In this document: piece by piece, positions 14,075 through 53,207 of the stretch | How positions within the stretch are numbered: position 1 is the stretch's first letter | Layout of the letters: every line of letters begins with the position of its first letter | Assembly: GCA_012799255.1 (NCBI GenBank) | Contig: JAAZLQ010000107.1 | Coordinates: forward strand, 1 to 64,000 | Direction of reading: 5' to 3' | Length of the DNA: 64,000 nucleotides | DNA from: Bacillota bacterium | GTDB lineage: Bacteria; Bacillota_G; Limnochordia; DTU010 | Made by a program: the position numbers and the translations under genes | Notes under the pieces: generated by a model | Databases searched by the model: none | What the model was told of the DNA's origin: nothing | The model's input: the letters and a program-made list of their open reading frames with translations, nothing else

Positions 14075-14336
14075 GGTAATAAAAAAACCTCCATCCACAA
14101 TGGGACGAGGTTGTCGCGGTTCCACCCAAATTGATCGCCTAGCGATCCACTTATTGCGCAGATAACGGTGCCCCGGCCTCGCTTACTACAAGTTCAGCGG
14201 GCGACTCCTAGGTGGTTTTCACCAAAACGCCCCTGGGGGAGTTTTCAGCACCAGTAGCTAGATTAGCTTTCTGGACTCCCTTCTCTGTCAGGTTAATAGA
14301 GGTTACTTTTCCTAATCATTGTCGTTTACTCTATTG
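14075..14336 (-). promoter_or_regulatory. T-box riboswitch leader of thrS
   Basis: Read on the minus strand, the T-box core GGGTGGAACCGCG ends near 14113 (plus-strand 14113-14127). It is followed by a terminator hairpin and seven T residues (about 14081-14108). The conserved CACCGTTATC element lies near 14160-14175. Stem I is closed by AATAGAG/CTCTATT, and an ACC triplet next to its 3' strand (plus 14301-14303) could be the threonine specifier codon. Uncharged tRNA-Thr should stabilise the antiterminator and turn on thrS. The specifier assignment is tentative; the T-box itself is clear. Confidence 0.93.
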
Positions 14337-30981: not shown

Positions 30982-31473
30982 TTACTTTCCTTGAATGATC
31001 ACCGCAGAATTGTTGTTGCCAATCTGGGCGATCAGAGCGGTGAAGTTGTCTCCGCTCTGCTGAATCCTGGCTGTATTGGCATTGCCCATTTGGTAGGCTC
31101 CTGCCCAGTTGCTGGTGCCTAGTTGTTGGGTCACTACAGTATTGTAGTTTCCCACTTGATAGGCACCCGCCCAGTTTCCCACTCCACTTTGCCATTGGTT
31201 TGCAATGTTGCCATCACCATTTTGATAGATGTAGGCCCTATTGTCCTGACCTTCCTGGACTTGCTCAGAACTATTGTCGTTTCCGTTTTGATAGACGTAG
31301 GCTGAATTTTCACCAGGTTCTACTTCATCTTCGGAAATCTGGAAAAAGTCGCTGAACCAAACCCCCAAATCGGATGGTAATACTGTTTCAGTTTCGTAGG
31401 CTAGAGCGTTCGCACTTGCAAGCAAACCTAGCACTAGTAACGCCAACACGATCGTAACCATTCTATTCTTCAC
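30982..31473 (-). CDS. Curlin-repeat protein (fourth amyloid subunit)
   Basis: 163 residues from a GTG at 31473, seven bases after AGGAGG. The signal peptide ends near ANALA. An acidic, non-repeat segment (about 27-55) comes first, as the N-terminal targeting segment does in CsgA. Then come nine uninterrupted 11-residue units of the form QxGxxNxAxxx. Two neighbouring 22-residue blocks begin with NWAGAYQ, showing recent duplication. It should form a cross-beta stack exported through CsgG. It is separated from csgG by 249 bases, so it may be expressed at its own level. Confidence 0.9.
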   Translation of the reverse strand: MKNRMVTIVLALLVLGLLASANALAYETETVLPSDLGVWFSDFFQISEDEVEPGENSAYVYQNGNDNSSEQVQEGQDNRAYIYQNGDGNIANQWQSGVGNWAGAYQVGNYNTVVTQQLGTSNWAGAYQMGNANTARIQQSGDNFTALIAQIGNNNSAVIIQGK

Positions 31474-31722
31474 TATTTTGCCTCCTCGGGTAACCCGGCT
31501 ATCTAATTATCTTAGACCCGTGGCTTTGTGTCCCCACCTCACGATGGGTTTACCTTTTTCTGAGGGACAGAGGAACTGAAGTTCGACCATCTCTCATTCC
31601 GCGACCACTTGTGGTAGCGGATCTTACACACTTCATCTTACACACACTTTGTCACGGCTCGTTGGACTAAGCAATCCCTATCTCTACGAGCAAGATAGTT
31701 GTGGCTTTAGCCACGGAGTTGG
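31474..31722. other. Intergenic gap inside the curli-like operon with hairpins and a direct repeat
   Basis: No open frame. It holds a hairpin at 31599-31620 (CCGC-ACCAC/GTGGT-GCGG with one mismatch), an 11-base direct repeat ATCTTACACAC at 31621-31631 and 31635-31645, a GTGGCT/AGCCAC hairpin at 31701-31714 just after the csgG stop, and an 11-base palindrome CGGGTAACCCG at 31487-31497 beside the ribosome site of the last curlin. None has a T-run on the minus strand. Confidence 0.55.
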
Positions 31723-32520
31723 TTAGTTAGTAAGTACTTGGCTTTGAACCAACTTGAAGACGGCTTCTTCCAGTAGAGTTCGAACAACTAGATTAATTAC
31801 CTGCTGTTTACCAGCACCCGTTTCAAACTCGACAATGTTCCTTCCCAAGAAAGAAAACAACTGGATTCCAATCTTCTCGCCTAGGACTTCGCCTTTGAGG
31901 CTTTCCGCCCAGATTACTTCACCTGTAGTCAGGTCAGTCACCCTTAAGTCAAGGGCAACTGATGCTCGAGCATACTCCTGGGATCCGCCTATACCGCCAA
32001 TAACAAGACCCAGTCCGCCAGTTTCCTTACTTACTTGGTATTCGGTGATGGAGCCAGAGATCATGTACTGAGGTCCCACGAGTTCACCCAGACGCGGCCC
32101 TTGACCAGGTAGTACCCTATTACTGGATACAAGGTTCTGTTCATTCATCAAGTCTCCAAATTTGACACGATCTAAGACAGAGAATTGGCGTGATCTGTGT
32201 AAAGCGGTGATCAACATTTCAGTAGAACCCTGAGTAACAACTGTTGATGCGGCACCACCATCCGCCTTGAGTTGTCCTGTACTATCTGTAATGCCATAAA
32301 TGGCAATCGGGATTTTTTCAACCGGTTCCGGTAGTGCAGCTAGAAGCTGACTAGCGGTCGTTACATTATCGACGGATAGTAATATGCTTTCGGGAACCTC
32401 CAATACTGCTGCCATCTCCTGAACTATTTCTGTTTCGGTGGCTGGTGGTGGGGTGCTAGAACCAGACAATCCCCCAAATAACATAGCCAATGTGAGAATT
32501 CCAATCATTACAAATTCCAT
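31723..32520 (-). CDS. csgG: CsgG-type curli secretion channel
   Basis: 265 residues. From about residue 68 it aligns by eye with E. coli CsgG: KIPIAIYGITDSTGQLK for KIFVSVYNIQDETGQFK, TEMLITALHRSR for TAMLVTALKDSR, then QYMISGSITEY, GGLGLVIGGIG and LDLRVTDLTTGEV. CsgG is a nonameric outer-membrane channel for amyloid subunits. Two differences stand out: the N-terminus has GGLSGSST with no lipobox Cys, and the loop holding the E. coli constriction residues Tyr51, Asn55 and Phe56 is replaced by small residues. The ATG at 32520 follows GGAGGG. Confidence 0.93.
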   Translation of the reverse strand: MEFVMIGILTLAMLFGGLSGSSTPPPATETEIVQEMAAVLEVPESILLSVDNVTTASQLLAALPEPVEKIPIAIYGITDSTGQLKADGGAASTVVTQGSTEMLITALHRSRQFSVLDRVKFGDLMNEQNLVSSNRVLPGQGPRLGELVGPQYMISGSITEYQVSKETGGLGLVIGGIGGSQEYARASVALDLRVTDLTTGEVIWAESLKGEVLGEKIGIQLFSFLGRNIVEFETGAGKQQVINLVVRTLLEEAVFKLVQSQVLTN

Positions 32521-32554
32521 TCTAACCCTCCTTTACATCTTGTCCATCACCTGA

Positions 32555-32977
32555 TTAAAAGTTTGGAGGCACTGGTTGGTTTCCTGAATCAATTGTAATC
32601 TCTGTCCAGCTACCATTAGAGTAGTGGTAGATCTTCATAGATTCACTAACCTCATCCCATTCATAGTAAATCCAGCCATCGTCCACTGGGACAAAACCGT
32701 AATCTGGGGCATCGGAGTTTGGATCGTAATAGACAATATCTCGAATAGCTTTGCTCATAGCCATACGGTCTAGGCTTTCTTTAAAACGGTCAAGTGCGCT
32801 TGGTTCTTCCGTAGTTCTGCTCAACTCCTGCTGTGCGTTAGCAATATTCAAGGCTACTTGTCGAGCGTTAGGGTTGTTGATAAGTTGAAAGCTATAGCTC
32901 ATGGTATAACTGGCAACTGCTGTGCCGGTGAGACTAAAAACAATTAGGATGGTACTAAACAGGACGACTTTTCTCAC
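32555..32977 (-). CDS. csgF: CsgF-type curli assembly factor
   Basis: 140 residues, GTG start after GGAGGGAG. The signal peptide ends near AVASY. The mature N-terminus YTMSYSFQLINNPN parallels E. coli CsgF GTMTFQFRNPNFGGNP, the part that sits in the CsgG barrel. EEPSALDRFKESLDR parallels ETPSALDNFTQAIQS, and the C-terminal strand ITIDSG parallels IQVSG. CsgF caps the secretion channel and places the nucleator at the surface. It lies 34 bases upstream of csgG. Confidence 0.88.
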   Translation of the reverse strand: MRKVVLFSTILIVFSLTGTAVASYTMSYSFQLINNPNARQVALNIANAQQELSRTTEEPSALDRFKESLDRMAMSKAIRDIVYYDPNSDAPDYGFVPVDDGWIYYEWDEVSESMKIYHYSNGSWTEITIDSGNQPVPPNF

Positions 32978-32992
32978 TGTAATCTCCCTCCT

Positions 32993-33517
32993 TTAGTAGG
33001 TAAACTGAAAACCAGCTGCTAAATGTAGACCTCTGTCGCCGATTCCGCCAGGCATGGTCACGTACCTTGCCTCAGCAAATAAGTTCTTGTTAAACTCTAC
33101 TCCAACAAAAACTTGGTACCTAAAACCATCGGCATAACCTGCTCCCCCTCCAAAGTAAACGGGGTAAGGGAGGTTACTAAAAGGAGCAAATTTTAGGGAC
33201 AGAAAGCCAGCTAAAGCCTGTTCGTTTTTTAGATAAACTGCTTCGGTTAAGATACTTACAGGTAACTCTTGACCAAGGTCTGTCTCCACTCTTACACCGA
33301 CACCGACTTCGCTTCCGTCACCTAAGGTGGTTAGAACCATACCTGCCTTCATCTTGGGGCGTGCCCGCTCTTGGGTGAGCATCCTGTGGGAAGCGGTGAA
33401 TAGGTCGATTCTCTCCTGACTGACTTCCTCGGTAGTTGATTGGTTGGCCAGAGCCGAGGGAGCAGTAAGGAGAAGTAGCAAGAGTAGTAACGTGATTACA
33501 TAAGTACGTTTTCTCAT
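32993..33517 (-). CDS. Small outer-membrane beta-barrel protein within the curli-like operon
   Basis: 174 residues with a signal peptide (a run of eight Leu, ending near SALA). The mature part has about eight amphipathic strands with Gly turns (YFGGGAGYADGFRYQVFVGVEF) and ends in FQFTY, an aromatic C-terminus expected for a BamA substrate. It does not resemble CsgE. It lies between curlin genes and csgF, 15 bases from csgF, so a role in fibre anchoring or assembly is plausible but unproven. Confidence 0.7.
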   Translation of the reverse strand: MRKRTYVITLLLLLLLLTAPSALANQSTTEEVSQERIDLFTASHRMLTQERARPKMKAGMVLTTLGDGSEVGVGVRVETDLGQELPVSILTEAVYLKNEQALAGFLSLKFAPFSNLPYPVYFGGGAGYADGFRYQVFVGVEFNKNLFAEARYVTMPGGIGDRGLHLAAGFQFTY

Positions 33518-33535
33518 TAGGAATTCTCCTTTCGG

Positions 33536-34249
33536 TTATCCTTGAGTGGCTGTAAAGGTGTTGTGGTTTCCAGTCTGAAATACGGAAACGGTGTTATCTA
33601 GACCCTGTTGGTTGATGAGAGTTGCATTATCATCGCCCAGTTGCAGACTGCCACTAAATAGCTGAGCTCCAGCTTGCTGAACAGATGTCCAGTTACTAAC
33701 ACCGATCTGCACAACTAGGGCTGCATTGGTTCCGACACCGAGTGGAAATTGCTCTTGTACTACAAAGGCTTCATTGTTATTGTCAATCTGATAAATGGAG
33801 CTGGTATTGTCATCTCCTATTTGTAGCAAGTTCAAGATGTTGTAAAGTCCCGATTGGTAGCTAAAGGCATCATTGTCGGATACTGCTCCAACGGGGAAGG
33901 ACCAGGCAGAGGAGTGCATCTGAGTAATGCTTGCCGAGTTTCCGGCACCGAACTGCATCGTTAAAACCAGATCTCCTTGTCCTAATTGGTGGATCTCAGC
34001 CTCGTTATCTTCTCCAACTTGTCCTATTCCCGCGATATGCCCAGAACCAATTTGGTCCACCGAGGAAGAGTTCTCATCGCCAAGCTGCAGGATAATTACC
34101 TCACTTAATACTTCTTGGTACACATAGATGTAGTTGTCGAATCCGATTTGAGTGACATTGCTGACTCCTTGCGCAAAGCCAAGCATAGGCGTTGCCATTA
34201 CGAAGGAGGCTACAAGGAAACCTATTAACAAACTTGGGAGCTTCTTCAT
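33536..34249 (-). CDS. Curlin-repeat protein (third amyloid subunit)
   Basis: 237 residues from the ATG at 34249, which has AAGGAG; an in-frame start at 34306 overlaps the upstream gene. The signal peptide ends near LGFAQ. About 17 repeat units follow, mostly 11 residues beginning with Q and containing GxxN. Two are expanded, including a 22-residue unit with SSAWSFPVGAVSDNDAFSY. It ends in NTFTATQG. As a curlin homologue it should be secreted by CsgG and polymerise. Confidence 0.88.
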   Translation of the reverse strand: MKKLPSLLIGFLVASFVMATPMLGFAQGVSNVTQIGFDNYIYVYQEVLSEVIILQLGDENSSSVDQIGSGHIAGIGQVGEDNEAEIHQLGQGDLVLTMQFGAGNSASITQMHSSAWSFPVGAVSDNDAFSYQSGLYNILNLLQIGDDNTSSIYQIDNNNEAFVVQEQFPLGVGTNAALVVQIGVSNWTSVQQAGAQLFSGSLQLGDDNATLINQQGLDNTVSVFQTGNHNTFTATQG

Positions 34250-34283
34250 TGCCAATCTCCTTCCAGATCTTCGTTCTATCCCG

Positions 34284-34868
34284 CTAAAAACCAAATCGGA
34301 TTGCATTTATTACGGTGTTATCTCCTATATGAAATAGGCTTAAATTGCTATCAGAGCCTACTTGATTATTACTTACGATGTTGTTGTTTCCGGCGATGGT
34401 GATCTTGGACGTGTGGCCATGACCGACTTGGTTTTGTGCTACCGTGTTACTGCTACCCAATACCCAGGCAACTGCTAAATTTTCACTGCCGATCTGGTTT
34501 TGGATCAAACTATTGCTATTGCCGTATTGCCAAATGAAGAGGGTATTGGCATCTCCAAGCTGGTTTTGGATGGTTAGGTTATTGTTGCCCAGCAGTGTAG
34601 CAGAGGCCTGATTAGCGTTTCCCGTTTGCGTTTGAAGGCTAGAGTTGCCTTCGCCAGCTTGGTAAATATAACTTTCATTATTACTCCCTATTTGGTATTG
34701 CATTGCCCAGCTGTCGAGAGCTCTCTGCTGAATGGTAGCCTGATTGTTGTCACCATCCTGATAAATGTATGCTTCAGTAATGTTCTGGGCAAAAACTATG
34801 GAACCGAAGATATTGAGCCCGAACATAATCACAATTCCAATCTGTACCATGCGTTTTGTATTGACCAT
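34284..34868 (-). CDS. Curlin-repeat protein, possible CsgB-like nucleator
   Basis: 194 residues, ATG after AGGAGG. The signal peptide ends near IVFAQ. Fourteen units of 11 residues follow. In the second half every other unit has lost its leading Gln (LLGNNN, VLGSSN, IAGNNN, HIGDNT), giving a 22-residue period, and the protein ends in a hydrophobic, basic tail AIRFGF. In E. coli CsgB the last repeat also departs from the Gln/Asn pattern and serves anchoring, so a nucleator role is suggested by analogy only. Confidence 0.85.
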   Translation of the reverse strand: MVNTKRMVQIGIVIMFGLNIFGSIVFAQNITEAYIYQDGDNNQATIQQRALDSWAMQYQIGSNNESYIYQAGEGNSSLQTQTGNANQASATLLGNNNLTIQNQLGDANTLFIWQYGNSNSLIQNQIGSENLAVAWVLGSSNTVAQNQVGHGHTSKITIAGNNNIVSNNQVGSDSNLSLFHIGDNTVINAIRFGF

Positions 34869-34925
34869 AGAGATCCTCCTATATAACGCTTTTTAGACCA
34901 GGAGTGACGAGTGCATGAGTTGGGG

Positions 34926-34968
34926 GGGCGAAGAAGTCTAGCTTCTCCGCCCGAGTATTCTAGATACT
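34926..34968 (-). promoter_or_regulatory. Tandem hairpins between the first and second curlin genes
   Basis: GGGCGAAGAAG/CTTCTCCGCCC (34926-34936 with 34942-34952) forms an 11-bp stem, next to a small AGTAT/ATACT hairpin (34954-34968). They lie within 50 bases of the first curlin stop and have no T-run. They may stabilise or attenuate the message so that the first gene is expressed most. Confidence 0.5.
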
Positions 34969-34972
34969 TCCA

Positions 34973-36355
34973 CTATTGGATTACGTTTGCGTTGTTGTAG
35001 TTTCCAGTCTGAGTAACAGTTGCCATAGCCATCTGCCCAGTTTGCTCGATCAGACTAAAGTTACTGTTTCCGGTCTGGGTTGTGCTTGCTAGACTTGGTA
35101 GCACACCGGTCTGATAGACATTTGTCTGAGTTTGCACCGCTGTGTTGCTGTTTCCAGTTTGATAGATGTAGGCTTCTAGAGCTCCACCAGAATTTTGCTC
35201 CTGCGAAGCATAGTTGTCATTGCCGAACTGGTAGATTTCTGCGATTGGACTACCATAGGCTGTATTGTTACTTTGGTATTGGAAGCTCTCATTGCGATTA
35301 CCATCTTGGGTGACTTCTGCCCAAGCTGGTCCCTGAACTTGAGTTATCTGTGCTTCGTTTCCGTTACCGTCTTGGACAACCCAAGCTTCCATTAAACTAC
35401 TGAGAATCGAAGTGGTTCCTTGCACCACTATTGCTTCATTGTCATTGCCGTTTTGGCTAAGATCTGCGAGGCTATCGTGCTGTAATTGATAAACCTCAGC
35501 TAGATTTGTTCTACCCATTTGAACCACTTCGGCTATGTTACCCCGTTGCTCTTGAATCACTATCGCATCATTGCCGATTCCACTCTGGGATACATAAGCC
35601 CATTGATCATCTCCAATTTGGCTTATGTCTGCAGTATTGAAGCCACGACCGAGGAGACCAAGACTGGTTTGGAGGATCTCAGCCCAGTTTGCATCACCAT
35701 CTTGGAATACATTAGCAGTGTTGAAACCACTAAAGAGCAGTCCAGTATCGAATTGCAATACCCTTGCATAGTTTCCTAATCCGTCTTGGATTACCTCAGC
35801 AAAGTTGTTACCCCTGAACAGTAGGCCAAGCCCTGATTGGCTGACCTCTACATAGTTACCCGTGCCTGTTTGGGAGATTTCTACAACATCGTTGCTACCA
35901 TTTTGATCCACATACGCTTGGTTTTCGTCTCCCAGTTGTCCAATAGTTGTGGATTCATTGTCTCCCGATTGATCAACTGTAATAGTGTTTAGGTCCCCTG
36001 CTTGAACCATATTAGCGGCGTGATCCTCACCAGTCTGATCAACTAAGGCATCGTTCGAGTCTCCGAACTGAATAATGTTAGCTACAGCTACACTTGAATC
36101 TTGGGTGACTAAGGCTGCGTTGAAGTCACCCATTTGACCTACCTGGGAGAGGTTATCTCGTCCAGCTTGGAAAATATCAAGGTCATTACTATCTCCGGTC
36201 TGAACAACGATGGCACTTTGCCTATCGCCATCTTGGCTGATAAACGCATCGTTTAAGTTGCCAGTCTGGGTTGCAGTTGCAGTATTGTCAGCTGCATAAG
36301 TAAAACTGCTAAGTCCCAGTACAACGATTAAAGTCAATACCAATAGTTTTTTCAT
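34973..36355 (-). CDS. Large curlin-repeat protein, probable major amyloid subunit
   Basis: 460 residues, about three times E. coli CsgA. After a signal peptide ending near FTYAAD the whole protein is about 35 units starting with Q, mostly 11 residues with the pattern QxGxxNxAxVx. Three units are stretched to 17 residues by a GLLF/G-type insert (near 170, 198 and 226) and alternate with normal units. The last residue is the Gln that would open the next unit. It is the first gene of the operon, with a good AGGAGG site. It should form a long cross-beta solenoid exported by CsgG. Confidence 0.93.
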   Translation of the reverse strand: MKKLLVLTLIVVLGLSSFTYAADNTATATQTGNLNDAFISQDGDRQSAIVVQTGDSNDLDIFQAGRDNLSQVGQMGDFNAALVTQDSSVAVANIIQFGDSNDALVDQTGEDHAANMVQAGDLNTITVDQSGDNESTTIGQLGDENQAYVDQNGSNDVVEISQTGTGNYVEVSQSGLGLLFRGNNFAEVIQDGLGNYARVLQFDTGLLFSGFNTANVFQDGDANWAEILQTSLGLLGRGFNTADISQIGDDQWAYVSQSGIGNDAIVIQEQRGNIAEVVQMGRTNLAEVYQLQHDSLADLSQNGNDNEAIVVQGTTSILSSLMEAWVVQDGNGNEAQITQVQGPAWAEVTQDGNRNESFQYQSNNTAYGSPIAEIYQFGNDNYASQEQNSGGALEAYIYQTGNSNTAVQTQTNVYQTGVLPSLASTTQTGNSNFSLIEQTGQMAMATVTQTGNYNNANVIQ

Positions 36356-36614
36356 TCTAAATCCTCCTCTTTGGTTGTGGATTGTTATCCTTGGCCGGTT
36401 TCACCCTAGCTCGCTACCATTCCATTGGTGACCAGTTAAGAAACGGTAGGTCGTCGCTTCCAAAGAGTTAGGTACATTTTGATGATGCCGTGTTGAATTT
36501 AATGGGGCTGATGACCACCTCCTTATTGGTTGAGTAATAATGGGTTGTCCATAGTCTTAATTATATTCTAAGTAAGTTACTTAAATAATTCTCGAAATCT
36601 ACTCTAATTTCACT
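36356..36614 (-). promoter_or_regulatory. Promoter and leader of the curli-like operon with a 15-base palindrome
   Basis: On the minus strand TATAAT (plus 36560-36565) is preceded at 17 bases by TTATTT (36583-36588). A perfect palindrome TAAGTAA-C-TTACTTA (36569-36583) fills the spacer, a likely operator. The leader is about 200 bases. It contains an unused strong ribosome-site sequence AAGGAGGT (36517-36524) followed by a possible 16-codon frame from GTG, though the spacing is poor. Confidence 0.6.
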
Positions 36615-36650
36615 CAAAAAAAAGACCTTGGGACAAGTTTGTCCCAAGGT
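36615..36650 (-). terminator. Terminator after the SARP-type regulator
   Basis: ACCTTGGGAC/GTCCCAAGGT stem (36625-36650), followed on the minus strand by C and eight T residues. It separates the regulator from the curli-like operon. Confidence 0.92.
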
Positions 36651-36666
36651 GTGAGAGGGAGGACCA

Positions 36667-37878
36667 TTAGTTGGTTAAGGTAGATACCCATCGCTCGCGC
36701 ATTTCCCTCAAATTTTCGCTATTGAGAATGTCGTAAGAGAAAACGGTTTCCTCACCCAGCTTTAAACGGAGGAGGTGCTGCAATCTCTGCAAGGTAACCT
36801 GAGATCCGGTAACATCAGTATCGGGTAAGAAAACAACAATCACGCTAGGTGTATATTGGCAGATCAAGTCAGACTGTCTCAGGGCACCTTGAATTATGGA
36901 GAACGCTTCCTTAAGTTGGTGGTTTCGCTCAGTTCCGATTCTACTTCTGATAATAAGTACCGAAAAGTGGTTTCCTGTGCGTTGGAGGCGACGCCGCTCT
37001 GCTTCAAACACGGTCTGTAACGCTGCTCGGGTACAGGTGAAAGCTCCAGGCAGTGCATTTACTTTACCCTGTTGCCTGAGATTATCGCTAGTGAGACTTC
37101 CCTTCATATGCAAGATCAATTCTTGAATGGCAGGACTAGGCTCTAGTTGAAATTCACCCATCAATAGCTGGGAATACTCGTTATACCAGTTCATTGCTTC
37201 GACAAAACGTTGTGCTAGGATCAGAGCTTCGATTCCAACTTGATAACACTCTTCTCTAAAAGGGTCTTTCTTGATCGCCTCTCGGCAAAGAGTGGCCGCT
37301 TCTAGAAAACTGGCGCGATGTTTAATTAGTAGTTGTGCTGTACGAAGAGTTACTTGGAAGAACAACTCTCGATATTCGGCGCGCCGGGCAATCGTCCAAT
37401 CTTCGTAAGGTTCATCACAGAGAAAATCATCCCGGTAAAGTTGTAAGGCAGCTTCACAGTAAAGGAGGGCCATCTCTGGGTTAGCATGCTCAAGTTGCTT
37501 GGATACTTTTGCATAGGATTCAAATAGTTCTGTGTCAATACAACCGCCTCCCAGTTCTAACCAATAGGCACCATTCGAGTAACGTAGAGGTGATTCTACG
37601 AGGGGATTATCCTCGAATGTCTCTGCTAAAGTACGGCGGACATACCAAACAGCAGTATGTAAGTTTCTCGTACTATCCACATCTTCGTTGTCTGGCCATA
37701 GGAGTTCAATCAGTGAGTCACTGGAAACCCTTTGACCATGCCTTGCGGCTAAGTATTTCAACATGGTAAGGGCTTTTTTTGATTTCCAGACGTTATGCTC
37801 TACCTTCTTTTGATCAATGAGCAGGTAAAAGGGACCTAAAAGACCGATCTGCAAGTGACAAACAGCATTATTGGCCAT
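36667..37878 (-). CDS. SARP/BTAD-type regulator with a degenerate GGDEF-like C-terminus
   Basis: 403 residues from the second ATG (37878), seven bases from GGGAGG; the first ATG (37884) abuts that site. An OmpR-like winged helix (about 10-95, SKKALTMLKYLAARHG and LIELLWPD) is followed by a bacterial transcriptional activation (BTAD) TPR domain (about 115-260). The last 110 residues resemble a GGDEF fold (LRQSDLICQY and VVFLPDTD), but YTPSVI replaces the catalytic GGDEF. It lies just upstream of the curli-like operon in the same direction and is the best candidate regulator; no CsgD homologue is present. Confidence 0.82.
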   Translation of the reverse strand: MANNAVCHLQIGLLGPFYLLIDQKKVEHNVWKSKKALTMLKYLAARHGQRVSSDSLIELLWPDNEDVDSTRNLHTAVWYVRRTLAETFEDNPLVESPLRYSNGAYWLELGGGCIDTELFESYAKVSKQLEHANPEMALLYCEAALQLYRDDFLCDEPYEDWTIARRAEYRELFFQVTLRTAQLLIKHRASFLEAATLCREAIKKDPFREECYQVGIEALILAQRFVEAMNWYNEYSQLLMGEFQLEPSPAIQELILHMKGSLTSDNLRQQGKVNALPGAFTCTRAALQTVFEAERRRLQRTGNHFSVLIIRSRIGTERNHQLKEAFSIIQGALRQSDLICQYTPSVIVVFLPDTDVTGSQVTLQRLQHLLRLKLGEETVFSYDILNSENLREMRERWVSTLTN

Positions 37879-38038
37879 ATCCATCCCTCCCGTGATAAGT
37901 ATCTGATTTATTCCCTAGTTTTCTTGAATATCCTGTAGGTAGCAGACAAATTTATGAACCTTTTTTTCTAACCATTTACCTTTAGTTAACCACATGAAGC
38001 TGTTATAGAACGGTTTTCGGCGTCTCTATGACCACTTC

Positions 38039-50105: not shown

Positions 50106-50154
50106 AAAAAAAGCGCAGAACGTTTAGGACGTTAATCTAAACGTTAGTGCGCTT
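50106..50154 (-). terminator. Riboswitch-controlled terminator before veg
   Basis: GCGCA-AACGTTTAG pairs with CTAAACGTT-TGCGC (plus 50113-50127 with 50137-50152), followed on the minus strand by seven T residues. It lies between the ydaO-type aptamer and veg. Confidence 0.92.
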
Positions 50155-50290
50155 GGCGTACTCCTACGAGGTTAGCTGACGGATTCGGGCACCCAAGTTG
50201 CCCTTCCTGAGAATTCAGGATTCACCCCACGATATCGGTTCCCCCGCTGTCACAAATCATGATATTCGGAGATCTTGGCGTTTCGTATGA
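50155..50290 (-). promoter_or_regulatory. c-di-AMP riboswitch (ydaO/yuaA type)
   Basis: Read on the minus strand, the conserved blocks occur in the known order: GACAGCGGGGGAACC, GGGGTGAATCC, AGGGCAACTTGGGTGCCCG, AATCCGTCAGCTAACCTCG and TAGG. These match the ydaO-yuaA consensus that binds two c-di-AMP molecules. Ligand binding usually favours the downstream terminator (an off switch), and such a terminator follows directly. The next gene on this strand is veg; the divergent neighbours are trkA-trkH. Confidence 0.93.
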
Positions 50291-50398: not shown

Positions 50399-51805
50399 TT
50401 GAATATTATTATTATAGGGATGGGCAAACTAGGTTATAAGCTAGCCGAGACACTTGCTGATGAACAGAACAATATTACAGTAGTGGACCAAAACGAAGCG
50501 GCTCTGACCAGGGTAACCAGCCGCCTTGACGTTTTGGCTGTAAAGGGAAATGGTGCTCAGCTAAAACTACTAGAAGACCTGGATATGCAGCAAACAGACC
50601 TTGTGGTGGCAGTCACTAGTAGTGATGAGACTAATGTCTTGATCTGTCTTTTAGCTAAGCAATTGGGCTGTAAGCGCGTAGTGGCCCGGGTGCGAAGTCC
50701 AGAGTATGCTAATCAGCTGGATTTTCTACAGAAGCACCTGGACTTGGATTTCATTACAAATCCTGAGTTTGACACTGCGGTTGATGTGGCCCGCTATATT
50801 CTGAGGGGCTATACAGCGCATGTGGAGTCCTTTGCGGAAGGTAAGGTTGGTCTGTTCGAAGTTTCATTGCAGGCTTTACCTCAACTGGTGGGACAAACCT
50901 TAAAGGAGATTGATCTTTTTGAGCAGATTTTGGTTGCCGCACTCTATCGCGATGGGCAGGTGATCATTCCCTCAGGGTCAACCAGTCTGCAAGAAGAGGA
51001 TGTTCTTCATCTAATAGGCCGGAGGGAAACTGTCACTTCTTTTATCCGGGAACGTTCTCTGGCCGGTGACAGACACGTCACCAAGCGAGTTATGATTTTA
51101 GGCGGAAGCAGGTCTTGTCTATATTTGGCCCAGCGTCTCTTGGCCCATGGTTTGAGTGTTAAGGTTGTTGAGCAAAATGAAGAACGCTGCAATTACTTAG
51201 CTGAAAATCTGCAGGGCGCTCTGGTGATTTGTGGAGACTGTACGGATTTAGAATTGCTGCAGGATGAGGGTCTAGCGGAAATGGATGCCTTGGTTTCCCT
51301 CACAGGCAATGATGAGGAGAACTTAATGTTGTCGTTGCTCGGCAAACAGCAGGGAGTTGCCAAGGTAGTGGCCAAGGTGAGTCGGTCGAACTTCGTACCA
51401 ATTATCGAGCAGTTAGGTATAGACCGGGCAGTTAATCCTGTTTTGATCTCTGCGGGAGAGATTTCCCGTTTTATCCAAGGTGGTCAGATTGCATCCCTGT
51501 CACTTCTATTTGGGGGGCAAGCAGAGGTGTTAGAGATCATCGTACCAGATGATGCTCCCATTATCGGACACTCTTTGGCTCAAGCTCAAATCCCCCAAGG
51601 TGTGATTATTGGATCCGTCGTCAGGGCGGGTAAGGTGATTATACCTAATGGTAGTTCAACCATTGAAGCAAATGACCGAGTGATAGCTTTTTGCTTACAT
51701 AGTGAAATTGCTGAGTTGAACAAGCTTTTTTATCCGAAGCGAAGGGGGATGTGGCATGAGCTTTGGGCTGGTCTCAAGGGTCCTCGGAAACCTCCTACTG
51801 ATTGA
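50399..51805 (+). CDS. trkA: TrkA, regulatory subunit of potassium uptake
   Basis: 468 residues with two tandem RCK units. The first Rossmann domain starts with IIIIGMGKLGYKLAE (NAD-binding GxGxxG), its RCK_C near 140-215, then a second Rossmann domain (VMILGGSRS, lacking the classic second Gly) and a second RCK_C (about 370-455). It gates TrkH according to nucleotide binding; RCK_C domains bind c-di-AMP in related proteins. The start is TTG at 50399, eight bases after GGGGG. It overlaps trkH by 50 bases. Confidence 0.95.
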   Translation: MNIIIIGMGKLGYKLAETLADEQNNITVVDQNEAALTRVTSRLDVLAVKGNGAQLKLLEDLDMQQTDLVVAVTSSDETNVLICLLAKQLGCKRVVARVRSPEYANQLDFLQKHLDLDFITNPEFDTAVDVARYILRGYTAHVESFAEGKVGLFEVSLQALPQLVGQTLKEIDLFEQILVAALYRDGQVIIPSGSTSLQEEDVLHLIGRRETVTSFIRERSLAGDRHVTKRVMILGGSRSCLYLAQRLLAHGLSVKVVEQNEERCNYLAENLQGALVICGDCTDLELLQDEGLAEMDALVSLTGNDEENLMLSLLGKQQGVAKVVAKVSRSNFVPIIEQLGIDRAVNPVLISAGEISRFIQGGQIASLSLLFGGQAEVLEIIVPDDAPIIGHSLAQAQIPQGVIIGSVVRAGKVIIPNGSSTIEANDRVIAFCLHSEIAELNKLFYPKRRGMWHELWAGLKGPRKPPTD

Positions 51806-53207
51806 AGCAACTGTGCTCTCAATCCCCTTAGCTGTCTCTTTGCATTATCGGGAACAGCAATCCATGATGGCTTTTTTGCTATCCATGGGTATAGCAGGGC
51901 TCTTTGGATTATTTCTTTCCAATATACAGGTTAAGTCTTCGCGTCTACGAGTAAGAGAAGCTTTGTTAATCGTAACCTTAGGCTGGGTTGTTGCCTCCAT
52001 ATTTGGATCTCTTCCATTCGTGTTATCGGGTAGTGTTGCATCTTTTGTGGATGGATTCTTTGAAACGGTTTCTGGTTTGACAACAACTGGATTCACGATT
52101 GTTAACCATGTAGAGTCGCTATCGAAGGGGATTATGCTTTGGCGCTCATTGCTACACTGGTTGGGAGGGATGGGAATCTTGGTTCTGTCCCTAGCCATCT
52201 TACCTACCTTAGGGGTGGCAGGATTTCAAGTTTTCAGGGCAGAGAGCCCAGGACCGGCTCCAGAAAAATTCACTCCTCGAGTTGCCGCTACCAGCAAGAT
52301 TTTATACACAATTTATGTGACTTTCACGATTGTACAGATCTTAGTGATGCATGTGGCAGGGTTGTCTTGGTTTGACAGCTTTCTATTATCTTTTAGTACG
52401 GTTGGCACAGGTGGTTTTGCGCCATATAACGATAGCTTAGCTCGATACAGTTCCAATAATCTACTTTTTTACTCCATCGCAGTTGGTATGATCCTTTCCG
52501 GCGTCAACTTTTCACTCTACTACGATCTCGGGAAGCGTCGCTGGAAACAAGTGATAAACAACGCAGAACTCCGGTTGTATCTCGCCATCCTAGCAGTTAG
52601 CGTCTTGGCGATTGCTTTAAACTTGTATAGGACTGTCTACACCAGTGGTGCGGAGACCTTGAAGCAAGCGCTATTTCATGTAAGTTCTGTCATGACCACG
52701 ACGGGTTTTTCTGCTACTGATTTCGATTTATGGCCTTCTTTTAGCAAAGGTATCTTGTTTGCTTTGATGTTTGTGGGGGGAAGTGCAGGTTCTACAAGCG
52801 GCTCGGTGAAAGTAATTCGTCTTTTGGTCGCCAGCAAGGTTGTGAAACGGGAAATAGCCAAAACTTTGCACCCTCAGGTAGCTACTCCTATTGTCATTAA
52901 TGGCCGGGTTGTAAAATCAGAAGTTGTGCAAGGAGTAGTCAGCTTTTATCTTCTTTATTTCGCGGTATTCATTGTCGGTTCATTGTTAATCAGTCTAGAG
53001 GGGTTAGATCTCTTCAGCTCAATGGGAGCAGTTGCGGCCTCCTTAGGTAATATCGGGCTTGGTTTTGGACAAGTTGGACCAACTGGCTCATTTGCCCTTT
53101 TTAGTCCAGTAGGCAAACTGTTTCTCTCGTTTCTCATGCTCTTAGGGCGCCTTGAATTGTTTACACTTTTGGCGGTGTTAAACCCGCGGTTTTGGCGAGA
53201 ATATTGA
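51756..53207 (+). CDS. trkH: TrkH, potassium uptake channel subunit
   Basis: 483 residues with ten or more hydrophobic segments and four pore loops with filter-like sequences: TVSGLTTTGF, STVGTGGFAPYN, SSVMTTTGFSATD and AASLGNIGLGFG. It imports K+ across the inner membrane with TrkA. The ATG at 51756 follows GGGGG and lies within the end of trkA, indicating coupled translation. Confidence 0.95.
   Translation: MSFGLVSRVLGNLLLIEATVLSIPLAVSLHYREQQSMMAFLLSMGIAGLFGLFLSNIQVKSSRLRVREALLIVTLGWVVASIFGSLPFVLSGSVASFVDGFFETVSGLTTTGFTIVNHVESLSKGIMLWRSLLHWLGGMGILVLSLAILPTLGVAGFQVFRAESPGPAPEKFTPRVAATSKILYTIYVTFTIVQILVMHVAGLSWFDSFLLSFSTVGTGGFAPYNDSLARYSSNNLLFYSIAVGMILSGVNFSLYYDLGKRRWKQVINNAELRLYLAILAVSVLAIALNLYRTVYTSGAETLKQALFHVSSVMTTTGFSATDFDLWPSFSKGILFALMFVGGSAGSTSGSVKVIRLLVASKVVKREIAKTLHPQVATPIVINGRVVKSEVVQGVVSFYLLYFAVFIVGSLLISLEGLDLFSSMGAVAASLGNIGLGFGQVGPTGSFALFSPVGKLFLSFLMLLGRLELFTLLAVLNPRFWREY

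Follow-up and report, generated by a model that had tools for sequence, protein, structure and literature searches.

A curli-type operon with two c-di-GMP riboswitch classes and a SARP-type promoter, probably native to diderm Firmicutes

By 2012 one curli gene set without csgC, csgD and csgE was known from Firmicutes; some published curli systems lack csgE and most lack csgC (Dueholm 2012, PMC3521004, in the excerpts available). The genus concerned is given as Halanaerobium in the accessible text of PMC4551309. Tandem glycine/cyclic di-GMP class I (c-di-GMP-I) riboswitches occur near curlin and CsgG genes, two of six associated open reading frames being curlin-related (PMC9481103, as far as its excerpts go). 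Here we describe an operon from a Bacillota bacterium (Limnochordia; assembly GCA_012799255.1), located in positions 1 to 64,000 of contig JAAZLQ010000107.1; this whole 64,000-nucleotide stretch is referred to as the window. The operon is probably a curli-type (type VIII secretion) export operon under control of c-di-GMP riboswitches and native to diderm Firmicutes. No prior description of it was found in open-licence PMC literature, where the excerpted PMC9481103 is the nearest prior art for its riboswitches. We regard as new the two riboswitch classes, the SARP promoter, a constant small barrel protein (BRL) and a CsgG without lipobox and with altered constriction. The first-pass annotation of the stretch had also considered gene set and order distinct. 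This was partly anticipated, since the Firmicute set lacking csgC, csgD and csgE was in print in 2012, and the order turned out to be common to relatives.

The published Halanaerobium system shares curlin, CsgF and CsgG with the window and likewise has no csgC, csgD or csgE, while the barrel, SARP gene, riboswitches and lipobox loss go unmentioned in the available portion of its report (PMC3521004). Halanaerobium loci included in our analysis contain the same BRL-CsgF-CsgG module; four of them (L016, L018, L022 and L024; L and G numbers denote loci and genomes) have no gathering-level riboswitch, unlike the Limnochordia ones. With E. coli csgBAC/csgDEFG, compared in the annotated K-12 order, the operon has in common curlin repeats, CsgG and the CsgF-like N-terminus. 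It differs by absence of CsgE and CsgC from relatives, by a CsgG that lacks the lipobox and has an altered constriction loop, by the extra barrel, and by riboswitches and a SARP regulator where E. coli has csgD. Since c-di-GMP drives fibre making in E. coli curli too, control logic would by analogy be similar and carried by different parts.

All genes lie on the minus strand; the four curlins, CsgG, CsgF and the small barrel had first been annotated as running in one direction, and all of them are confirmed. In order of transcription these are the SARP-family regulator (36667..37884), Cur1 (34973..36355, 460 amino acids, 13 curlin-repeat stretches), Cur2 (34284..34868, 194 amino acids), Cur3 (33536..34249), BRL (32993..33517), a CsgF-like protein (32555..32977), CsgG (31723..32520) and Cur4 (30982..31473, 163 amino acids). 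The regulator gene falls within the range annotated initially (to 37878) and had not been mentioned there. Intergenic gaps measure 104, 18, 15, 34 and 249 bases. The longest Cur3 frame begins at 34306, but ribosome-binding site and signal peptide make 34249 the most likely start, which places Cur3 34 bases after Cur2 in place of an overlap. One gathering-level riboswitch is situated in each of the widest gaps, which measure 311 and 249 bases.

Pfam bears out the curlin and CsgG assignments. Curlin_rpt (PF07012) is above its cut-off of 20.7 bits in all four curlin proteins, Cur1 to Cur4 reaching 190.3, 53.5, 69.5 and 60.4 bits (E 3.8e-57, 2.2e-14, 2.3e-19 and 1.5e-16), and CsgG matches PF03783 with 8e-43. 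Cur1 also passes the NCBIfam CsgB model (178.6, cut-off 165). Judged by its sequence, the operon is a real curli-type one, in which a diverged CsgF and a predicted barrel join CsgG and the four curlin-repeat proteins. That its curlin-repeat proteins are exported without forming curli-like amyloid, as soluble, glue or surface-layer proteins, seems decidedly unlikely. Motif counts of 3 (the floor of our script) to 25 per protein and four subunits per operon, which is many, would suit such a role, but the curlin-repeat matches in Pfam are strong, and large and multiple CsgA/B homologues have been described in other curli systems (PMC3521004, excerpts).

GTDB species genomes were scanned with a CsgG profile, which yielded 34 loci from Halanaerobium, Halanaerobacter and many metagenome-assembled genomes (MAGs); close named homologues of the window CsgG include Limnochordia. 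BRL, CsgF and CsgG occur together in 29 of these loci, 27 times in the order BRL-CsgF-CsgG and twice (L029, L030) as CsgF-BRL-CsgG. Of the five loci without the module, L010 and L028 are contigs starting inside it, L032 and L033 contain 131-residue CsgG fragments, and the last is L031. The two fragments (L032:4358-4753, L033:1442-1837) correspond to the C-terminal half of CsgG and are found in two MAGs with no surrounding operon. Among 72 genomes of the class to which G011 belongs, which we equate with Limnochordia, BRL was detected in 14, CsgG of any strength in 25, strong CsgG (E below 1e-60) in 17, and BRL with CsgG in 13. Corresponding numbers in the class of G014, which is that of Halanaerobium (n = 59), are 13 (one of them, in G120, a weak match of 6e-4), 20, 13 and 11. 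The class names are inferred, and weak CsgG matches were excluded as likely paralogues. Mismatches between BRL and CsgG concern contig ends (G039, G112, G023), fragments (G063, G066), a second type of CsgG system (G069, G099, G117) and G120.

Curli are best known from Proteobacteria, and one relative, contig L001, is assigned to a MAG named Pseudomonadota. Both points would suit recent acquisition from Proteobacteria or a chimeric contig, the latter having been raised as a concern in the initial annotation. Either is hardly credible: CsgG phylogeny, flank synteny, and riboswitches and regulator common to other Firmicutes all contradict an insert or chimera. In a maximum-likelihood CsgG tree of 73 rows, built from proteobacterial and Firmicute sequences with Bacteroidota, Thermodesulfobacteriota and other diderms left out, the 30 proteobacterial and 43 Firmicute rows are split by a 100/100 branch, and the window CsgG is placed in a five-row Limnochordia set (99/89). 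The genes that come after the operon in the window, SleB, DeoD and DapDC, also do so in L002, L003 and L013. On this evidence the operon is one of diderm Firmicutes (Limnochordia, Halanaerobiales), and we reject its origin as an insert from Proteobacteria.

Firmicute csg operons are also present in three MAGs with names of other phyla, Pseudomonadota (L001, G001), Elusimicrobia (L025, G021) and Nitriliruptoria (L030, G024). These names are likely binning or naming errors; for L001 an error of the bin is likelier because its CsgG groups with Limnochordia in the tree.

An outer membrane, assumed for the host at the outset, is likely, since Omp85/BamA was found in 21 of 22 relative genomes searched (G022 is the exception). 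No outer-membrane markers were found among nine further window proteins scanned. LptD was detected in 4 of 22 relatives, once above cut-off, and was not used as evidence. LolA was found by Pfam in 2 of 25 genomes; LolA is reported from each Halanaerobiales genome analysed in PMC5007114 (accessible part), and given this discrepancy our result carries too little weight to support a loss of lipoprotein transport. Neither csgE nor csgC was detected in any of 25 relative genomes, many of which are MAGs with completeness not stated (several of them incomplete) and three of which (G001, G021, G024) bear names of other phyla, while E. coli controls were positive for both. The proposed lack of CsgE and CsgC accordingly holds as far as relative genomes go, and the proposed extra barrel is upheld by an eight-stranded model (see below). 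As to CsgD, no such regulator is among the genes of the operon itself; no genome-wide search for csgD-type regulators was made.

Rfam search of the whole window gave five gathering-level matches, two of them inside the operon and both absent from the first-pass annotation. A class-II aptamer (36386..36470, minus strand) is located 30 nt 5' of Cur1 and matches RF03169 (c-di-GMP-II-GAG) with 43.1 bits (gathering 40, E 4.4e-5); against the parent family RF01786 it reaches 50.9 bits, 2.6 under the gathering value of 53.5. A class-I aptamer (31485..31563, minus strand) is located 11 nt 5' of Cur4 and matches RF03167 (c-di-GMP-I-GGC) with 67.6 bits (gathering 59, E 8e-14). In the case described in PMC9481103, a c-di-GMP-I riboswitch likewise lies 5' of a curli-related gene, but, in the excerpts available, in tandem with a glycine riboswitch; here two c-di-GMP classes occupy two places of one operon. 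Hairpin-meta2 at 35475-35606 was rejected, its Rfam score being far under the gathering threshold.

Riboswitches were searched in the window and 33 loci; twenty Firmicute csg loci, or repeats of such (L025-L028, L030-L033, L035-L042, L047-L049, L053), were outside this search. Class-I aptamers accompany the curlin gene that follows CsgG in 14 of 17 searched loci with such a gene (window, L002-L013, L017), 10-12 nt 5' of the start codon in 13 loci. For the displaced curlin frame of L007 no start was found near the aptamer; in L012 the aptamer precedes the second post-CsgG curlin. Class-II aptamers precede an early curlin in 11 of 19 loci with the upstream region in view (window, L004, L009, L011, L013, L034, L046, L017, L029, L051, L052). 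Operons combining both classes are those of the window, L004, L009, L011, L013 and L017, the last a Halanaerobiales locus; class-I aptamers away from curlins occur in L034 and L029. Downstream of the curli operon in L020 (5682-5767), a c-di-GMP-II aptamer is located 29 nt before a gene for a 247-residue signal-peptide protein without curlin repeats.

The class-II leader has the layout expected of an ON switch, in which the ligand would form stem P1 and free the ribosome-binding site. The 5' strand of P1, CUCUUUGG (36460..36467), has two possible partners: the 3' strand of the aptamer itself and, by eight Watson-Crick pairs, CCAAAGAG (36367..36374), which extends into the ribosome-binding site of Cur1. 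In single-base shuffles, which were used for all linkers, a helix of this quality occurs in 5 of 1000 window linkers. An alternative helix of at least 7 Watson-Crick pairs is present in 11 of 12 leaders and reaches the ribosome-binding site in 10; in L052 it is kept with a different sequence and ends just short of the site. For 10 of the 12 leaders at most 37 of 1000 shuffled linkers equal it, and L029 (457) and L020 (855) are unremarkable. We claim no polarity for the class-I switch, because free folding at 13 loci gives its ribosome-binding site unpaired values anywhere between 0.04 and 0.79, and in a consensus fold built from 12 leaders the site is not paired.

Since the best-scoring Rfam families of both aptamers are variant classes, c-di-GMP-I-GGC and c-di-GMP-II-GAG, the signal might be other than c-di-GMP. 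Such variants can change ligand (PMC7266159, excerpted text). The class-II core also departs by one base from the RF01786 consensus (GUGAAACC for GUGCAACC) in 11 of 12 leaders, L046 having GCGAAACC. We nevertheless consider another ligand unlikely. RF01786 outscores the GAG model on the window aptamer (50.9 vs 43.1 bits), and in place of the G of GCGAA in the GGC consensus, the window and 11 other aligned class-I leaders carry the A of ordinary c-di-GMP-I. This base, A47, is important in class I. Curli, furthermore, suit c-di-GMP biology. GGDEF proteins were found in 16 of 16 relatives searched. Control by c-di-GMP remains our preferred reading of both leaders.

The regulator gene encodes the domain pair of SARPs, Trans_reg_C (34.2 bits, cut-off 26.2; 2.7e-8) and BTAD (61.4 bits, cut-off 22.1; 1.6e-16), followed by a weak GGDEF-like tail (0.0069) below the Pfam cut-off. 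Among ten relatives scanned, this tail is above cut-off in two (L004, L011), weak in six and absent in L016 and L024. In 13 of 18 loci whose flank is in view, the regulator precedes the curlins; in L019 it lies downstream, L021 has only a 142-residue piece, and L046, L051 and L052 have none. BTAD matches number one to seven per genome in 29 genomes, of which nine have a single one. This sole BTAD gene stands beside csg genes in G016, G020 and G099, and on a different contig in the other six.

SARP activators of the same domain composition bind 11-bp direct repeats, the last of which is 8 bp from the -10 element (PMC10936776, PMC5930380, in the text available); those described there belong to antibiotic clusters, whereas here the gene is adjacent to Firmicute fibre genes and has a GGDEF-like tail in some relatives. 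The window promoter fits this layout and represents a putative operator. Between regulator and Cur1, four 11-bp repeats (36579..36618, minus strand) comprise three TTnGAG boxes spaced exactly 11 bp and a weaker fourth, and a -10-like hexamer, TAGAAT (36565..36570), lies 8 bp past the latter. The three-box score is 15 of 15 in the window, L001, L004, L011 and L013, 14 in L009, and 13 in L034, L016, L018 and L024. In these ten of 13 loci none or one of 500 dinucleotide shuffles equals the score (none in the window), with the motif chosen from the alignment beforehand. Spacing of 8 bp to a hexamer matching TATAAT in five or six of six positions is found in six of seven Limnochordia loci (the window and five of six relatives). 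For L016, L018 and L024, one position of six agrees in the hexamer at 8 bp, and a five-of-six match is seen by eye at 9 bp. General promoter and terminator scans gave no matches in excess over shuffles. They covered a terminator-like hairpin between regulator and curli genes (36625..36650, minus strand), which is a consensus match only.

The window CsgG matches solved CsgG with 2.4e-31 when a profile is used, and Foldseek ranks E. coli CsgG first for its predicted model, although the model is poor (predicted local distance difference test score, pLDDT, 63.6); pore geometry was therefore not derived from it. It scores 83.6 with the NCBIfam CsgG equivalog model, far under the cut-off of 505. While the lipobox is present in 30 of 30 proteobacterial CsgG rows (28 by a narrower pattern), it was found in none of 43 Firmicute rows (18 Limnochordia, 22 Halanaerobiales and three from a sister system described below), so that CsgG would not be a lipoprotein here. 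The window CsgG contains no cysteine at all, and its start codon is backed by a strong ribosome-binding site. At the position equivalent to E. coli 56, all 30 Proteobacteria carry F, L, I or Y, and 36 of the 40 curli-type Firmicute rows carry glycine. The loop at the constriction, which in E. coli is formed by Tyr51, Asn55 and Phe56, has 9 to 12 residues in 39 of these 40 rows (14 in the remaining one) and 13 or 14 in Proteobacteria. Halanaerobiales-like operons L025, L027, L050 and L052 contain tandem duplicate CsgG genes, perhaps forming mixed-ring pores.

The CsgF assignment of the first-pass annotation holds by profile: the single sequence fails in Pfam, and a profile of relatives matches CsgF. 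The profile, made of 26 sequences, matches solved E. coli CsgF with E 0.0016, in an alignment that includes the N-terminal segment, and recovers 26 of 30 proteobacterial CsgF loci. Among 120 listed of its 178 database matches many carry PF10614, and the named carriers among them are mostly Halanaerobium or Halanaerobiales. We thus rejected the possibility of an unrelated protein, which the single-sequence result would have allowed, as the profile tests pass.

BRL has no accepted family in Pfam (best match 0.1), and its sequence has no match among solved structures. The AlphaFold model, based on 26 sequences (pLDDT 88.4, predicted template modelling score 0.68), consists of a helix over residues 2 to 51, which covers the signal peptide and a following helix, and eight strands. 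Foldseek places the OprF barrel 4rlc (3.9e-4), designed barrels and OmpA on top; TM-scores on the query are roughly 0.4 to 0.5. Model and Foldseek together thus point to a signal peptide and an eight-stranded barrel of the OmpA/OmpX type. From OmpA, OmpX and the OprF N-terminal domain BRL differs by lack of sequence match to solved structures, by its conserved pre-barrel helix and by its association with csg genes. Mean column identity is 0.63 in the helix (residues 35-46) and 0.49 overall, ranging from 0.50 to 0.70 in strands and from 0.27 to 0.53 in loops. Database search with the BRL profile retrieved 78 proteins, whose named organisms are all Firmicutes, Limnochordia or Halanaerobium; there was no match in 30 proteobacterial stretches of about 3.4 kb.

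We tentatively propose that BRL anchors CsgG. By the proposal, BRL holds or places CsgG in the outer membrane and would therefore replace the lipid. There is close to an even chance that BRL instead belongs to the surface side of the fibre system, for example as a platform for curlin nucleation or attachment, or is a small barrel with an unrelated envelope role. BRL comes after the last early curlin gene in most loci, small eight-stranded barrels often serve adhesion or stability, and CsgG of the sister system (L044, L045) has neither lipobox nor BRL. On the other hand, BRL stays beside CsgF and CsgG even where the order is swapped (L029, L030), and its conserved helix, which precedes strand 1 in the model, should face the periplasm, i.e. 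the CsgG side and not the fibre side.

With BRL as anchor, the system might work as follows. The SARP activator would bind the 11-bp repeats and recruit RNA polymerase. In absence of ligand the leader would hide the ribosome-binding site of Cur1, which would be freed once c-di-GMP lets the class-II aptamer form. Sec would take curlins, BRL, CsgF and CsgG over the inner membrane. BamA would insert BRL, whose conserved N-terminal helix would hold or place CsgG, and CsgG would act as an outer-membrane pore without lipid anchor. CsgF would cap the outer side, where curlins would polymerise, and the class-I switch would tune Cur4 separately.

Several observations weigh against this picture of a c-di-GMP-controlled curli export operon. 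The CsgF-like sequence taken singly scores 15.3 bits with PF10614 (E 0.023), below the cut-off of 25.8. Class-I aptamers gave no match in L001, L015 and L019 among the 17 loci with post-CsgG curlins, nor did class-II aptamers in L001, L016, L018, L019, L021, L022, L024 and L050, and the variant Rfam names leave room for a different ligand. The SARP repeats are absent or weak in L022 (35 of 500 shuffles equal), L017 (497) and L029 (474), L034 has no -10 at 8 bp, and the repeat tests are not independent because the Limnochordia loci are close relatives. Cysteine occurs within the first 45 residues of seven Firmicute CsgG rows, in none of them in a lipobox. Lysine and arginine are missing from the first eight CsgG residues in 15 of 18 Limnochordia and 7 of 22 Halanaerobiales rows, which is odd for a Sec signal; these counts use the longest open frame, so that some starts may be wrong. 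In L031 CsgG is adjacent to a curlin without BRL or CsgF, in a MAG that also has the full module L014.

In the window (32490-32520) and its relatives CsgG begins with ME and has no lysine or arginine ahead of the hydrophobic stretch, from a start supported by a ribosome-binding site.

The sister system was found in L044:5088-8653 (G099), L045:4667-8287 (G117) and, cut by a contig end, L043:2-1208 (G069). L044 and L045 comprise CsgG with a hydrophobic C-terminal tail, a SARP gene, a 117-118 residue protein with a CsgF-like N-terminus (by eye), and a signal-peptide protein of 278-282 residues without curlin repeats or Pfam match; a short-type protein of 110 residues accompanies CsgG in L043. BRL was not found in these three stretches. 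Such a gene set suggests that CsgG serves here to export a different cargo.

An unlikely, wider reading would join these elements into a lipid-free curli export line. CsgG would lack both anchor and bulky constriction residue and be inserted by BRL. The two c-di-GMP switches, possibly opposite in sign (class II ON, while the class-I leader may hide the ribosome-binding site once formed), would change the curlin made as c-di-GMP rises, and the same pore would serve non-curlin cargo in L043-L045.

The operon may show how a curli pore could work without lipid anchor, CsgE and bulky constriction residue, BRL being a candidate replacement part. It would also tie curli to c-di-GMP through RNA, with no csgD in the operon, in diderms distant from Proteobacteria. 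The presence of the family in two lineages of diderm Firmicutes may bear on the question whether an ancient outer-membrane toolkit included fibres of this kind. CsgG also serves as a nanopore for sequencing, where natural relatives whose constriction loop is shorter and mostly tipped with glycine may find practical interest.

Elsewhere in the window, a c-di-AMP aptamer of the ydaO type (50145-50281, minus strand, 91.1 bits) is located near a TrkA/TrkH potassium uptake pair on the opposite strand (50399-53207, plus), and a T-box leader (14098-14328, minus strand, 111.1 bits) directly 5' of a threonyl-tRNA-synthetase-like gene (14046-12313).

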